Assembly (NCBI GenBank): GCA_028714255.1
Contig: JAQTMR010000001.1
Span: 62,001 to 126,000, forward strand
Length of the DNA: 64,000 nt
DNA from: Phycisphaerae bacterium
GTDB lineage: Bacteria > Planctomycetota > Phycisphaerae > Sedimentisphaerales > Anaerobacaceae
Reading direction: 5' to 3'
The notes beneath the pieces were generated by a model. That model made no database searches. It was not told where the DNA came from and saw only the letters and a list, made by a program, of their open reading frames with translations. Shown piece after piece: positions 15,558 through 54,921 of the stretch (its first letter is position 1; every line of letters begins with the position of its first letter). A program made the position numbers and the translations under genes.

Positions 15558-16775
15558 TCAGAATTTACCCGCCGAGACTTCAAGAATCGGCAATATCGTA
15601 GCATAAGCGATTAAACCTATTATTGCAGCCATAATAATTATAATAAGCGGCTCAACGGCAGCACTCAACCTTTCAATAACCATATCAGTCGAAGATTCGA
15701 GGTTTTCGCTGATATCTTTAAGCATTTTTTCGAGTTCGCCGCTTTTCTCTCCGACAGCGACCATATGAGCAATCGCAGGGTCGATGACTCCACTGTCTCT
15801 CAAGGGGGTGGCAATATCAGCACCGGCGAGAATCCTCTCCCGCGCCTGCTGCACGGCAGTTTTCATAAGACTATTGCCGGTAACCTCAGAGACGACTCGA
15901 AGAGATTCAGCCATCGCAAGACCTGAGCCGAGAAGTGTCGAAAGCGTGGATGCAAATCTGGCGACGACCCGCTGTTTTATCAGCGGACCGAACAACGGGA
16001 GAGACAGCAGAAGTTTGTCCCGCAAATACGCGCCTCGTTTGGTCTTCAGGAAACGTCTCAAGCTCCATACGATTCCCAAAATAGCGGCAATTAGGACAAG
16101 CAGCCACCAGCTCGTCAGTACGTAACTTACACCCATCAATCCTCTGGTAAGCAGGGGCAATTCCTGCCCGGTCCTTGCAATCTGCTCAGCTATTTTCGGG
16201 ATAACAAACGTAGTCAAAACGAGAATCGCAGCGATACAAAATACAATCAGAACCATCGGGTATATCATCGCGGTCATTACCTTCGATTCGACTCGCTGGC
16301 GTTTCTCCATAAACTTGGCGATGATGGAAAGGCTCTGCCCCAAAGAGCCTGTTACCTCGCCGACGCGAACCATACTGACATAAATAACGTCAAAATAGTC
16401 GCCGTAATCGCCCAGGGCATCGGTGAAAGATTCCCCGCTGATGACCCGGTCGCGGATGTCGGTAATTGCGTTCTTGAAACGCACATCGGTTATCTGCAAA
16501 GTAAGAACCGAAAGGGCTTCGGTCAGCTTGATTCCTGAATTGAGCAGCGTGGTCATCTGCTTGGTAAAATCGATTATCCGGCCTTTTCCGCTGCGAGCGA
16601 AAATTGAGAACAGTGCAGCTTTTCTCTCGGAACCAGAGCCGGATTCTGTGATAGAAGTAGGATGGACACTTCGAATCCTCAGCTGTTTTCGCGCAGCATA
16701 AGGACTTTCGGCGGTGATTGCGCCTTTGACTTTTTTGCCGTCTGCGGCGACTGCTGTATAATTGTACCTTGGCAT
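15558..16775 (-). CDS. gspF: T2SS inner-membrane platform protein GspF
   Basis: The 405-residue protein contains two T2SSF repeats with membrane helices. It opens MPRYNYTAVAADGKKVKG, characteristic of GspF/PilC, and carries FTKQMTTLLNSGIKLTEAL in repeat one and FASTLSTLLGSGLAMAESL in repeat two. It ends in a C-terminal helix (IIIIIMAAIIGLIAYATILP). GspF is the polytopic core on which GspE works. It lies 57 bases upstream of gspG. Confidence 0.95.
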   Translation of the reverse strand: MPRYNYTAVAADGKKVKGAITAESPYAARKQLRIRSVHPTSITESGSGSERKAALFSIFARSGKGRIIDFTKQMTTLLNSGIKLTEALSVLTLQITDVRFKNAITDIRDRVISGESFTDALGDYGDYFDVIYVSMVRVGEVTGSLGQSLSIIAKFMEKRQRVESKVMTAMIYPMVLIVFCIAAILVLTTFVIPKIAEQIARTGQELPLLTRGLMGVSYVLTSWWLLVLIAAILGIVWSLRRFLKTKRGAYLRDKLLLSLPLFGPLIKQRVVARFASTLSTLLGSGLAMAESLRVVSEVTGNSLMKTAVQQARERILAGADIATPLRDSGVIDPAIAHMVAVGEKSGELEKMLKDISENLESSTDMVIERLSAAVEPLIIIIMAAIIGLIAYATILPILEVSAGKF

Positions 16776-16840
16776 TGTCCATTTACCATTGATTATTGAC
16801 TATTGACTATTTTTTCTCGCTGTTTTACGAGCAAACTGTC

Positions 16841-41661: not shown

Positions 41662-42059
41662 ATATTAAGTTCTCGCTGATACTGCTTATATCACCCTTTC
41701 ATCGACTTTTTGACCGCCCTGCTCCTGTTTACAGGTAAGTTTTTCCGCTTTTCCCCCGCATTGAAAGGTATCTTCGCATTGTACCAAAAAATCGCCCTCG
41801 GAATCAAGATTTTGCTTTTTACAGCCGATTTTTAACGTATAAACAGCTTTTTTATGGGGCATATTGAAGTATAGACGTACCGCCGGCCCTATTTATTGCA
41901 CAAAAATCGGGCGAGGACAAGTTTGATATGGGGGAAATAGATAAAATAGGCAATCTCTAAAAGGGGGAAATACGAGGGAACGATTTAGCAAAATGGGCAA
42001 GATGAGTAGAATGGGGTAGCATCATTTGCGCAAGTTTTGGCTTTTAGACGTGCAAAGAC

Positions 42060-42136
42060 TTACAAAGATTTACAATAACTTACAATAGTTTACAAAAACA
42101 TGCCGGAATTTACAAAAACTTGTGCCTAATTTACAA
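42060..42136. repeat. TTACAA iterons at 10-base spacing
   Basis: TTACAA starts at 42060, 42070, 42080, 42090, 42110 and 42131. The first five fall on an exact ten-base grid with one position (42100) missing. Each is preceded by T or C and followed by A or T. Spacing of one helical turn places all copies on one face of the DNA, as in arrays bound by multimeric proteins. Function unknown. Confidence 0.75.
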
Positions 42137-49840: not shown

Positions 49841-50169
49841 AACCACGGATTGAATCATAGTTAATTTTTTTAACCACGGATTAACACAGATTTTCACGGA
49901 TTATTTAATTTTCAATAAAAATATATAGCTGTTTCTTATATTCAAGCAGTACTCATATACTCACCATCATTCCCCGCATTGTTTTATTAACCACGGATTG
50001 AATCATAGTATTTTTTTAACCACGGATTAACACGGATTTCCACGGATTATTAAATTTTCAATAAAATATATAACTGTTCCTCATATTCAAACAGTACTCA
50101 TGCACTCGCCATCTATATTCTCAGCATTGTTTTATTAAACCACGGATTAACACGGATTTTCACGGATTA
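49841..50169. repeat. Tandem 148-base repeats rich in CCACGGATT
   Basis: Units start at 49841, 49989 and 50138 (spacing 148 and 149 bases). The first two read AACCACGGATTGAATCATAG, T-run, AACCACGGATTAACAC, CACGGATTATT, AATATATA, then a CAGTACTCAT segment and CATTGTTTTATTA. The third is cut short and supplies the left inverted repeat of cassette A. No gene is present. The tandem array may have arisen by slippage or by repeated insertion at one spot. Confidence 0.88.
50140..50168. repeat. Cassette A left inverted repeat (29 bp)
   Basis: The 29 bases starting CCACGGATTAACACGG are perfectly complementary to 51394-51422. The copy lies 7 bases after the end of the HEPN-like gene (minus strand). 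The CACGG core itself occurs three times within the repeat. Confidence 0.92.
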
Positions 50170-50175
50170 TATAAT

Positions 50176-50889
50176 TTAAAGCAATTCTTCAATCAATTCT
50201 CGTATCCCTTTTATCATTGCTCCAACATCTGAGTTGTCGAACTTATCCCACTCGGCATGTAAGGCATGATTTCTAACCCCTGCAAATGACCTGACTCTTT
50301 TTGCCTTTACAGGGGTAAAAACATTCGCCTTTACTAATTCGTCAATGAGGGGGTCAAGAGTTTTTCTTTCTGTTGCCAGCCCATTCTTCTGGGCGATTTT
50401 CTTTACCGTATCCTCCAAAACCGCACTTGCCAAAACCGATGATTCGATTTTTTTATTCCCCTTGTGATACTCGGCTGCGTAATCTAGGAAATCATCAAAT
50501 GTTGCTCCCGCTACAATATATTCAATCCGTCCAAGCAAGCCATGATCCCACTCATCTTTCACACCTTTTAGTACCCCAAGCATAAGCACCAGCACATTTG
50601 ATGGAACCCCTTGTTTCAGGTGTTCATCTGCCATAAGATCGTCACATTCCTTGGCAAGATGCGTTTCGGGCGGCGCAACAAAGTGTGTGAGATTTGATGC
50701 CGAAGTTAGCCATGCTCGAAATTCTGAAACCCTTTTCTGCGGAACCCAATATTCGTATCTGTTATTGTCATATTTTTTATGTCCATCGCCGCTTATTCCT
50801 GCAAGTTCTGGCCCCAGTGTTCCAATTAACCCACGACCATGATTGATTAACTCGTCAAACCTCTTAGTTATATCTTCTTTCATTCCCAT
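50176..50889 (-). CDS. HEPN-like protein with RNase motif
   Basis: From the ATG at 50889 (AAAGG eight bases upstream) the product has 237 residues. The C-terminal helical region holds FAGVRNHALHAEW, with Arg206-x4-His211 and Asn after the Arg: the HEPN RNase motif. Helices before it (ESSVLASAVLEDTVKKIAQKNG) resemble DUF4145/abortive-infection C-terminal proteins. Active HEPN proteins cut RNA in toxin-antitoxin and phage-defence systems. No MNT antitoxin partner is present; the neighbour is a GxxExxY protein. Sits inside the leu operon in the operon's direction. Confidence 0.65.
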   Translation of the reverse strand: MGMKEDITKRFDELINHGRGLIGTLGPELAGISGDGHKKYDNNRYEYWVPQKRVSEFRAWLTSASNLTHFVAPPETHLAKECDDLMADEHLKQGVPSNVLVLMLGVLKGVKDEWDHGLLGRIEYIVAGATFDDFLDYAAEYHKGNKKIESSVLASAVLEDTVKKIAQKNGLATERKTLDPLIDELVKANVFTPVKAKRVRSFAGVRNHALHAEWDKFDNSDVGAMIKGIRELIEELL

Positions 50890-51000
50890 ACCGGTACGCC
50901 TTTCCACTTTATCTGTGCGCAGATACTGGAAATACTATTTAAACTTTTTAATCCGTGGTTAATACTTTTTTTCATCTTATCCGTGGTCAAAATCCGTGGT
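50890..51000. repeat. Internal CCGTGG repeats of cassette A
   Basis: Between the HEPN-like and GxxExxY genes are three TCCGTGGT phrases (near 50951, 50979 and 50993), inverted relative to the left repeat array. Any of these could pair with the left arms, giving alternative RNA stems. Confidence 0.7.
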
Positions 51001-51378
51001 TTACAATACTAATCTTTTATACCTCAACGACTGCTCACCAAAGTTTATCAACAGTCCTACTTGCAGTCCCGTTGCTTTTAGATAATTCAAAAGCTGTGCC
51101 TCTTCGATATTCGTGATAGCTTTTAACGCCTTGAGTTCCACCAATACTTTCTCGCCTACCAGAAAATCGCAAAAGAAATCCTTAGCTTTTTCTCCTTTGT
51201 ACATTACCGATATCGCCTTCTGGCGTTCATAGAGCAGTTTCTGCAAATTAAATTCTATCGCTAAAGCTTCTTCATAAACACTTTCCAAGAAACCCGGCCC
51301 AAGATTTGAGTGTACTTCCATAGCCGCTCCGATGACGGCTCTTGTCAGCTCACTATGCATCAAATCTCGTTCACCCAC
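51001..51378 (-). CDS. GxxExxY protein (PD-(D/E)xK-like)
   Basis: The 125-residue protein carries LGPGFLESVYEEAL, the GxxExxY signature, and a nuclease-like CDFLVGEKVLVELKAL with Asp and Glu-x-Lys in the order of a PD-(D/E)xK core. The tail QVGLLINFGEQSLRYKRLVL is typical. The GTG at 51378 follows AAAGGAC; an ATG at 51360 is an alternative. The family is small, widespread, patchily distributed and of unknown function. It often occurs in repeat-rich spacers. Here it lies between leuD and leuB. Confidence 0.88.
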   Translation of the reverse strand: MGERDLMHSELTRAVIGAAMEVHSNLGPGFLESVYEEALAIEFNLQKLLYERQKAISVMYKGEKAKDFFCDFLVGEKVLVELKALKAITNIEEAQLLNYLKATGLQVGLLINFGEQSLRYKRLVL

Positions 51379-51393
51379 AAATGTCCTTTTTAC

Positions 51394-51422
51394 AATCCGT
51401 GAAAATCCGTGTTAATCCGTGG
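51394..51422. repeat. Cassette A right inverted repeat (29 bp)
   Basis: This is the exact reverse complement of 50140-50168. It overlaps the 3' end of leuD, whose stop codon (51412-51414) and last two to three codons lie within the repeat. The repeat has therefore replaced the native leuD end. Confidence 0.92.
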
Positions 51423-51900: not shown

Positions 51901-51918
51901 CGCTTAGCTCCTTCGCTC

Positions 51919-51951
51919 GGAAATCCTAAATTCTAATTTCTAAATTCTAAA
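51919..51951. repeat. Cassette B left inverted repeat
   Basis: The 33 bases beginning GGAAATCCTAAATTCTAA match the reverse complement of 52362-52394 at 27 of 33 positions. The CTAAA phrase repeats about every seven to eight bases. Beyond the 33 bases the similarity continues with a gap (CAAATG blocks). Confidence 0.85.
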
Positions 51952-51986
51952 TAATATCAAAATCCTAATAACAAATGTTCCAAATA

Positions 51987-52352
51987 TCACCTGGTCTTGG
52001 TCACAATCGAACCGAAAATATGCGTAAGTTCGTTAGCTTCACCTTCCAAAACCTTTCTTTCCTGCTCAAGGCCTTTATTTGCTCCGGTATCGACCAATCG
52101 CAACCAGTATCGGCTTTCTTTTGCTTCTTTTCGGCATATCTTTGCTCGCATAGCAAAATCCTTCTTGCTCAACGCTTCATTTGCCTCAATGTAGTTTGCT
52201 CCGATTGACCCAGATGACCTTATAAGCTGTTTGCTGTCTTCTACATTAGCCAAAGTCCGACCCAGCTTCGCAACAAACTCCCTGATTCGTCTTGCAAATA
52301 TCAACGTCCTGTCCTCAAGGTCATATTGTTTCGAATTTTGTGTTTTGGTCAT
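51987..52352 (-). CDS. Four-helix-bundle protein (S23/IVP family)
   Basis: The 121-residue helical protein (DLEDRTLIFARRIREFVAKL, RSSGSIGANYIEANEAL, AKICRKEAKESRYWLRLV) belongs to the four-helix-bundle family first seen encoded in 23S rRNA intervening sequences and related to the Avd accessory protein. Function is unknown. It is the sole gene of cassette B between leuC and leuD, co-oriented with the operon. Confidence 0.9.
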   Translation of the reverse strand: MTKTQNSKQYDLEDRTLIFARRIREFVAKLGRTLANVEDSKQLIRSSGSIGANYIEANEALSKKDFAMRAKICRKEAKESRYWLRLVDTGANKGLEQERKVLEGEANELTHIFGSIVTKTR

Positions 52353-52361
52353 TTGTATTTG

Positions 52362-52394
52362 TTTAGAATTCAGGGTTTAGATATTAGGATTTCC
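52362..52394. repeat. Cassette B right inverted repeat
   Basis: This arm ends exactly one base before the leuC stop codon (52395-52397). Its complement begins GGAAATCCTAATATCTAAA. With the left arm it could form an imperfect stem of more than 30 pairs in the leu transcript, with the four-helix-bundle gene in the loop. Confidence 0.85.
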
Positions 52395-53668: not shown

Positions 53669-53695
53669 TTAGGGTTCAGGGGATAGGGTTTAGGG
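53669..53695. repeat. Cassette C left inverted repeat (TTAGGG-like)
   Basis: The 27 bases, made of TTAGGGT-type heptamers (TTAGGGTTCAGGGG then ATAGGGTTTAGGG), match the reverse complement of 54895-54921 at 24 of 27 positions. The final codons and stop of the four-helix-bundle gene lie inside this arm. Confidence 0.87.
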
Positions 53696-54077
53696 GGATA
53701 GTTTTACTCGCTTCAATATCCGGTTTTGGATACATTATGCGGTAAAGCATTCCGCCAACTTCTTTTAATAGGCCTTTAATAGCATTATTTTGTTTTGTAT
53801 AACCTAAATCTACCGCCAGCAAATATTGAGTTTCCAATTCCAGCAGAGAACCATAGGCTATGGACAAAAACCTGTGGTAGTCAGTTTTGTGTTTTCTGCC
53901 GTATCCTTCGGCTATATTCGAAGGAATTGATATTGCTGCTCTTCTAACTTGTTGTGTTAATCCGTATGTTTCAGACTTCGGAAAATCACAGGTAAGTTTA
54001 TAAATTTCCAAAACAAGTATATAGGCTTTCTGCCAGACTATAAGTTCTTTGAAACTTTTTAATTTCTTCGTTTCCAT
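53676..54077 (-). CDS. Four-helix-bundle protein (S23/IVP family), second copy
   Basis: The 133-residue protein has the family pattern SFKELIVWQKAYILVLEIYK, FPKSETYGLTQQVRRAAISI, PSNIAEGYGRKHKTDYHRFL and SLLELETQYLLA. It is of the canonical S23 branch, while the cassette B protein is more divergent, so the two were acquired separately or diverged long ago. The C-terminal TIPLNPIP is read from the repeat arm. It lies 26 bases behind an unknown gene in cassette C. Confidence 0.92.
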   Translation of the reverse strand: METKKLKSFKELIVWQKAYILVLEIYKLTCDFPKSETYGLTQQVRRAAISIPSNIAEGYGRKHKTDYHRFLSIAYGSLLELETQYLLAVDLGYTKQNNAIKGLLKEVGGMLYRIMYPKPDIEASKTIPLNPIP

Positions 54078-54103
54078 TTTTTGAGCCTTTTCACCCTGTT
54101 TTG

Positions 54104-54874
54104 CTATTCTCGCTCGTATTCATAAAACCACGCCTTGAATCTATTGCTTGCATCACCTCTCCATTCGCTTCCTTTTTTTATGTCTTTACTACAATATCCC
54201 ACAGGATACGAAAAGAGTTTTGACTCAATAACCATATTGTAATCCGGACAGCCAATAGAATTAGGCTGCCGCCGTCCAAAATCCTCTTTGAGTAACTCAA
54301 AGGGAGAAATGGGCAATCCGCCTGTTTCATCCAAAAATATACAACCTTTTTCCCACAGAATATCCCAACAATCTTCACAACGTATGATTGCCAAAAACAA
54401 GCCACAGAGAGCTTCGACCACATACTTCAGTTTCGCTTTTTCCTGGTTTTTAATGCGATTGTGTTTAACCTTCTGATACGCTTTCCACCATTCTAATTCT
54501 AAATCTTTGCGCCTGTTCCATATTGCCTTAGTAAACTCGGAAGCAGTTAACGAAGACCATGGACTAAACGGCTGAACTTTTTTACCGCTTTCGCCCCAGA
54601 ATACAGCCCATTTGGAAGCTATATCAGAACCGAAATGTGTAAAGTAATCTACAATGTATGGGTTTTTCCCCTTAATTGGTTTTATTTTATTTTTTTCCAT
54701 TTCCCATAACCACAGCGAATCCAGTTGGCTACAGACATCGAGGAAAATTGTTACAAGTCGTGGTGACCATACGTTTTTATGCTCATCACAATATGGTACA
54801 AACTCCAAAAAATCATAAAGATTTTTTTCTGCATCTGTAAACCAGTTAACAACATTTCTCAGCAAATCTGCCAT
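54104..54874 (-). CDS. Unknown cassette C protein with WWKAYQKVKHNR motif
   Basis: From the ATG at 54874 (AAGGA five bases upstream) the product has 256 residues. I do not recognise the family. It is helical and aromatic-rich, with LELEWWKAYQKVKHNR near residue 130, an LFLAIIRCEDCWDILW helix near 165 and a Cys-poor C-terminal part. The motif resembles the KxKH-R helix of some HEPN-like RNA-associated proteins, but a proper Rx4-6H is not seen. Its place in a repeat-bounded cassette with a four-helix-bundle gene suggests an accessory role. Confidence 0.6.
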   Translation of the reverse strand: MADLLRNVVNWFTDAEKNLYDFLEFVPYCDEHKNVWSPRLVTIFLDVCSQLDSLWLWEMEKNKIKPIKGKNPYIVDYFTHFGSDIASKWAVFWGESGKKVQPFSPWSSLTASEFTKAIWNRRKDLELEWWKAYQKVKHNRIKNQEKAKLKYVVEALCGLFLAIIRCEDCWDILWEKGCIFLDETGGLPISPFELLKEDFGRRQPNSIGCPDYNMVIESKLFSYPVGYCSKDIKKGSEWRGDASNRFKAWFYEYERE

Positions 54875-54894
54875 TCGCATTCCTTATTTCTATA

Positions 54895-54921
54895 CCCTAA
54901 ACCCTGTCCCCTATACCCTAA
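54895..54921. repeat. Cassette C right inverted repeat (CCCTAA-like)
   Basis: The arm reads CCCTAAACCCTGTCCCC and TATACCCTAA and complements 53669-53695 at 24 of 27 positions. It lies between the unknown gene and the EamA-type gene. Confidence 0.87.

Follow-up and report, generated by a model that had tools for sequence, protein, structure and literature searches.

The intervening sequences (IVSs) of 23S rRNA genes that carry an S23p ORF, found in Leptospira, Coxiella, and Brucella, are the described elements closest to the small cassette between leuC and leuD considered here, which they resemble in protein family, in complementary ends that close a stem, and in sporadic distribution. IVSs are 428-444 nt long, similar in size to the cassette, and are thought to be selfish, and the four-helix family of their protein includes the toroidal pentamer XCC0516 (2GSC) (PMC4990558). 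Avd of the diversity-generating retroelements represents a homologous family of four-helix pentamers (PMC10053308).

Heptanucleotide repeats are known from a number of bacteria, among them GGGAATC in Xanthomonas, GGGGA(C/T)T in Nostoc, the STRR sequences of cyanobacteria, and TAACTGA in Beggiatoaceae (PMC4692102, PMC4679880), and like the arms of the cassette these repeats have seven-base units, lie between genes, and most often number four to an array. Those of Xanthomonas consist mostly of four units, often form inverted pairs in intergenic regions, lie near the 5' neighbour, and are unexplained (PMC4692102). The papers on such repeats draw no link to a four-helix gene, whereas here the arrays bracket one, and its arms appear to predict dispersed arrays. 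A further parallel is offered by REPINs, inverted doublets found across a genome, each group of which is tied to a single-copy RAYT gene with matching flanks (PMC3116915); in the class to which the cassette belongs, inverted doublets that match the flanks of a gene are seen for cassettes of Dyella and Nostoc. A literature search that did not take in preprints or most subscription papers found no paper linking four-helix (PF05635) or GxxExxY genes with heptad repeats, and the class of heptad-armed cassettes seems to be undescribed.

Anatomy of the cassette between leuC and leuD

The window, by which is meant the whole stretch of 64,000 nucleotides analysed, comes from a genome of 2.41 Mb in 39 contigs; in a protein search, Planctomycetota and Sedimentisphaerales MAGs came out as its closest named relatives. 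The ORFs on the minus strand run in the order leuC (53657-52395), a gene for a protein of 121 aa (52352-51987), and leuD (51900-51412), followed by a GxxExxY gene (51378-51001), a gene for a protein of 243 aa, and then leuB. The upstream host protein, LeuC, is 75-87% identical in relatives, the downstream host gene, leuD, is present in 60 of 61 of them, and both ORFs are intact, in keeping with the original prediction that the element had damaged neither host gene.

The gene between them is bounded by two arms, which had been matched at 27 of 33 positions as an inverted repeat (51919-51951 and 52362-52394), a count that is reproduced here; an independent local alignment pairs 51919-51954 with 52359-52394 at a score of 37, the maximum among 300 dinucleotide shuffles being 26. 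The left arm, on the leuD side, is built of the degenerate heptads TCCTAAA TTCTAAT TTCTAAA TTCTAAA, inverted with respect to the right arm, and forms a period-7 array (51921-51952); the 64 kb contain just one other such array, and five shuffled windows contain none. The exact fit of the element into the intergenic space is likewise borne out, as the right arm adjoins the leuC stop codon and the left arm, which starts 18 nt from the leuD ATG, lies just beyond the Shine-Dalgarno stretch of leuD, GAGCGAAGGAGCTAAGCG (51901-51918, minus strand). This ribosome-binding stretch is missing at an empty site in the same genus and similar at other occupied sites. A weaker, inner extension of the inverted repeat runs on the leuD side from the arm to the stop codon of the enclosed gene (51955-51986, with the pair 51960-51975 / 52377-52392) and on the leuC side reaches into the first codons of that gene, and this inner pairing is also present in relatives. 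When the cassette is folded as RNA, both arms form a terminal stem (z=-3.85), and none of 100 shuffles is equally stable.

The protein encoded within the arms, a four-helix bundle of the 23S_rRNA_IVP family (121 aa, MTKTQNSKQYDLEDRT...), belongs to the family of IVS proteins, as had been inferred from the sequence alone. It matches PF05635 with E=3.5e-11 and 43.7 bits, and TIGR02436 with E=3.5e-17 and 62.6 bits, against curated cut-offs of 33.8 and 24, so that family membership is met, and its nearest solved structure is 2RLD (E=1.8e-11). PF05635 was the only domain that a profile search found in the protein; there was no recombinase domain, and the criterion for a Y1 REP-associated tyrosine transposase was not met. 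The Avd model NF033474 gave no match to the 121-aa protein, and a canonical paralogue in the window scores 27.2 of 80 bits in the comparison with Avd, far below the cut-off. The ORFs read in the vicinity of the cassette included no reverse transcriptase.

The cassette satisfies one criterion for an IVS, in that its complementary ends form a terminal stem around an S23-type ORF. Unlike an IVS, it lies in an operon spacer between protein-coding genes and not in an rRNA gene, its arms are heptad arrays, its class is far broader, and excision by RNase III has not been established for it. The comparison with REPINs and RAYTs also has its limits, as the cassette gene encodes neither a Y1 tyrosine transposase nor any known catalytic domain and its ends are heptad arrays rather than REP palindromes. 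The cassette is therefore a variant of the IVS kind by protein and stem, and REPIN-like by dispersed doublets, yet it is neither, because it is not in rRNA and its protein is not a RAYT.

Other arrays and cassettes occur in the same window. Upstream of leuC, a second four-helix cassette (53669-54921) holds a four-helix gene (53676-54077) and an unknown gene (54104-54880) between arms of inverted GGGTTTA/GGGTATA heptads (score 39, shuffles no higher than 29). Beyond leuD, three CCACGGATTAACACGGATT-type arms of period 10 (50020-51422) are arranged around the GxxExxY gene (51001-51378) and the 243-aa gene (50176-50907), which belongs to no known family; the outermost pair of these arms, 50020-50054 and 51388-51422, is inverted. 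A period-10 array, GACTTACAAAGATTTACAATAACTTACAATAGTTTACAA, lies at 42046-42095, and a gene-less period-7 array, ATTGATTATTGACTATTGACTATT, at 16773-16811, with no partner within the adjacent 400 nt.

Empty and occupied sites

The spacer between leuC and leuD was read first in 29 of the 60 relatives with leuD (61 screened) and then in others; the label casB is used for the four-helix type of the window's CTAAA-armed gene at this junction. The original prediction would have failed had empty sites shown the CTAAA sequences to be ancestral, and the empty sites came out in its favour. Spacers of 7-19 nt without CTAAA were found in a genome of the same genus (G002) and in G013, G010, G026, G008, G059, and G038, which means that the CTAAA arms belong to an insert.

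CTAAA-armed four-helix cassettes occupy the spacer in G000, G022, G034, and G170 (family f1), G043 and G051 (f2), G320 and G054 (f7), and G060 (f5); within the order, four families have an occupied junction. The arms are of CGAAA type in G032, G216, and G253, and pairs of CTAAA arms without a gene are found in G020, G005, and G024. Quite other occupants are present elsewhere: a GxxExxY gene with CCACGGATT arms in G006, G015, G012, G031, and a second leuC-leuD locus of G059, other four-helix types in G009 and G030, and a CACAGAG-armed gene in G036. From this comparison of spacers, the junction is inferred to have been occupied repeatedly, and not once. The breadth of occupancy across four families and the gene-less CTAAA remnants could also be taken to mean that CTAAA is an old feature of the operon, a spacer sequence unrelated to the gene; this is scarcely credible in view of the clean junctions in close relatives, the quite different cassettes at the same junction elsewhere, and the occurrence of the gene with these arms at other loci, and an ancestral spacer sequence is refuted by the empty sites.

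A single ancient insertion followed by purely vertical descent was also considered. For the casB proteins at leuC-leuD the LeuC+LeuD tree is rejected (AU p=0.015), with the modest resolution to be had from 121 aa, and this result, together with the unrelated cassettes at the same junction elsewhere, disfavours such a history. The casB-type gene is under purifying selection, with a dN/dS of about 0.07-0.25 in three close pairs. Among casB relatives, left and right arms vary together in type (CTAA or CGAA; rho 0.85), a concerted change from CTAAA to CGAAA in both arms that recognition, pairing, or correction by template switching would fit equally well.

Some junctions have a more complicated structure. 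One leuC-leuD spacer (L044, in G023) holds a chimera, with the left end of a GxxExxY cassette bearing a CCACAGATT arm and a CTAAA arm on the right, as if one cassette had inserted into another. In two others (L021 in G001 and L030 in G024), the true start of leuD is preceded by a degraded second copy of its first ~60 nt, which the palindrome GTGCCTTTAGGCAC splits, and a further spacer (L163, in G042) contains an inverted pair without a gene, CCATGAAGCACATGAAGAGCATGAAG ... CTTCATGTCCTTCCTGCTCTTCATGG, which is MITE-like and has arms of GxxExxY type. Recurrence across genera is seen at other junctions as well, with related cassettes that carry different heptads in one case (L096 in G005 and L100 in G032) and unrelated four-helix types at one host junction in different genera in another (L086 in G001 and L099 in G034).

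Plasmids of Nostocales provide empty sites near base-level resolution for three cassettes. In pNsp_a of Nostoc sp. ATCC 53789, the spacer that reads TTCTAGGTTATG in related plasmids has become TTCTA-AATCAGGAGTCAGAAGTCAG...gene...CTGACTTCTGGATTCTA-GTTATG, and in pNsp_c the same spacer is empty while the next one holds another cassette, with GGGGAAA-type arms. Two Calothrix plasmids have a GGGTGTA-armed cassette in place of a spacer that is empty in plasmids of Tolypothrix, Nostoc carneum, and Aulosira. On a third plasmid from Nostoc (L260), the four-helix gene is split by an element that lacks a gene and has matching CAGAAGT/CAGGAGT heptads, with no clear target duplication at this insertion. 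Short sequences that might be target duplications at the Nostoc junctions disagree with one another, and neither a constant terminal sequence nor a constant target duplication was found at the four sites compared. Without a constant duplication at these sites or a recombinase domain in the encoded protein, the criteria for a classical transposon are not met.

Heptad arms and dispersed arrays

Arms were scored by aligning the 160 nt upstream of a gene with the reverse complement of the 160 nt downstream, with p<=0.01 as the criterion. Inverted arms were present at 37 of 60 four-helix genes from the window's genome and 13 relatives, and at 11 of 20 GxxExxY genes from the window's genome and relatives; among neighbouring genes in the relatives, only one of 80 had arms, and it lies near a GxxExxY locus. 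A GTDB-wide set gave arms at 60 of 76 usable loci, in 19 named phyla, and at one of 48 neighbouring genes (2/128 for the two controls pooled). This wider set was not drawn at random: it was picked by similarity, as the 80 top-ranking relatives of a canonical alignment. The proposed survey of four-helix genes for CTAAA flanks thus had a divided outcome: inverted arms are general, but CTAAA is confined to one protein subclade and is ruled out as a general signature, since other four-helix genes carry other heptads in equally clear inverted arms.

The arms have a periodicity of 7, with lag-7 identities of 0.65 (relatives) and 0.58 (GTDB-wide set), high values at lags 14 and 21, and about 0.25-0.40 at other lags; the arms of GxxExxY genes peak at 9-10, not 7. 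Arrays have a median length of 32 nt, or 4.6 units. The outer edge of an arm typically lies a few nt from the upstream stop codon, and 68 of the 90 cassettes with scored neighbours on both sides lie between co-directional genes. Among 91 clear four-helix cassettes there are 81 distinct heptads, and in 83 of the 91 the best match to an arm is its own partner (a mean of 0.67 per base, other cassettes scoring 0.18), arms being alike between cassettes only where the proteins are more than about 65% identical. Within the CTAAA-type cassettes alone, the partner arm is no better a match than the arm of another cassette (p=0.26). The signature of the class is a pair of inverted arrays of about 4-5 heptads, the same within a cassette and different between cassettes, and the cassette in the window meets the criteria for membership, with inverted period-7 arrays around the gene and the unit missing at related empty sites.

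These observations bear on two accounts in which the four-helix protein has no part in forming or moving the arms. Inverted ends, gene-less copies, and the lack of an internal recombinase would all be expected if the arms were MITE-like ends moved by a conventional transposase encoded elsewhere, with the four-helix gene as cargo, and GxxExxY genes also sit between inverted arms, of a different grammar (period 9-10). Such an origin is very unlikely, because 81 heptads in 91 cassettes would amount to as many end specificities, yet always with the same protein family, and a constant terminal sequence or target duplication is not seen. The second account starts from general processes: tandem repeats slip, and template switching corrects imperfect inverted repeats. 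Slippage and template switching might keep the arms alike as by-products around a gene with a host function that spreads by ordinary recombination, and the arms of orthologous cassettes do drift together, for example in L084 and L085. However, arms and gene are both missing at empty sites, neighbouring genes lack such arms, and a passive process is not expected to single out the same protein family across 19 or more phyla, and the account is accordingly rated as quite unlikely.

Long direct repeats around cassettes of two genomes were examined as possible target duplications. The repeats, of 165 and 110 bp at L072 and L062 (G039) and 44 bp at L055 (G044), hold an arm, a gene remnant, and the opposite arm, with an intact copy alongside, and were rejected as target duplications, having turned out to be degraded tandem copies of the cassette, arms included.

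Heptads of the same type are also found away from the cassettes. In Dyella, a four-helix gene (L198) is flanked by GGGAAT arms, and its genome contains 29 array matches, against one for a reversed control, among them three inverted heptad pairs without a gene. Among 78 Xanthomonadaceae genomes, the median number of GGGAATC arrays is 29 in the nine with a GGGAAT-armed resident cassette, 1 in the 12 whose cassette bears other arms (Mann-Whitney p=0.0003 against the GGGAAT group), and 2 in the 48 lacking a four-helix gene (p=0.00006 against the GGGAAT group). Arm types were assigned by eye, nine genomes with a four-helix gene were excluded from the arm groups as ambiguous or without clear arms at two ends, and the comparison is inflated by shared ancestry. 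Four exceptions (G347, G338, G349, and G376) have 46-130 GGGAATC arrays and no detectable four-helix gene, suggesting that arrays either outlast the gene or come from another source. By these counts, which heptad the resident cassette carries is a predictor of the dispersed GGGAATC repeats in Xanthomonadaceae. In G000, the CTAAA motif outside the cassette is present only as partial arms, whereas Dyella and Nostoc do have matching inverted doublets without a gene.

Dispersed arrays also weigh on the possibility that the cassette is simply an IVS-like RNA element, in which the arms serve only as an RNA stem, RNase III excises the cassette from the operon transcript and so renders it harmless, and rare movement is left to homologous recombination or horizontal transfer. 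The protein family shared with IVS ORFs, the pairing of the inverted ends in predicted RNA, and the sense orientation within transcribed operons are all consistent with such an element. It would leave unexplained the period of 7, the copy-specific heptads, and the dispersed gene-less arrays of the same heptad, and it is considered unlikely, if not to be dismissed.

A proposed class of recombinase-less cassettes

The reading preferred here is that the segment is a member of a class of mobile cassettes, compact, widespread, and without a recombinase, in which a four-helix gene lies between cassette-specific inverted heptad arrays, with recognition of its own heptad by the protein being an inference; this is judged probable, though well short of settled. 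What is directly shown is that the segment is an insert, that the arms are part of it and pair within their own cassette, that such cassettes lie behind stop codons, mostly in the sense orientation within operons, and that the four-helix protein is kept under purifying selection. On this reading, it is a selfish cassette related to the IVSs of 23S rRNA.

A mechanism can be sketched for the preferred reading. The cassette would be transcribed along with the host operon, and its basic, probably pentameric four-helix protein, for which the family structure 2GSC is the basis, would bind the heptad array of its own element, either as an RNA stem or as a single-stranded DNA hairpin, although there are no binding data. 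Together with host polymerases or nucleases, the protein may then promote the spread of array-bearing DNA in cis and in trans, and gene-less derivatives would be mobilised in trans, as RAYT does for REPINs. Copy-specific heptads would prevent each protein from acting on other families of ends, and it is a matter of speculation that an array of ~4.6 units and a pentamer reflect one unit per subunit. Against a model of mobility, no movement has been observed, and there is no catalytic domain in the protein.

A more far-reaching proposal can be offered only tentatively, as a possibility that may well prove wrong: that these cassettes are a separate kind of mobile element, with no catalytic recombinase, a four-helix pentamer as specificity factor, and co-evolving heptad ends, whose gene-less derivatives lie behind much of the excess of heptanucleotide repeats, and of which the rRNA IVSs are the cases that landed in rRNA genes.

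There are consequences for annotation, because a four-helix gene within an operon, for instance in a cas locus, may have arrived there as a cassette and not be a functional partner. PF05635 genes found between cmr genes have been considered as possible cas partners (PMC3936711), and that they may instead be inserted cassettes is a simpler reading, conjectural for those loci. The anatomy of the cassette also joins three open puzzles, namely the function of S23/four-helix proteins, the origin of rRNA IVSs, and the excess of heptanucleotide repeats, and leads to the prediction that each four-helix protein would recognise the heptad of its own flanks.
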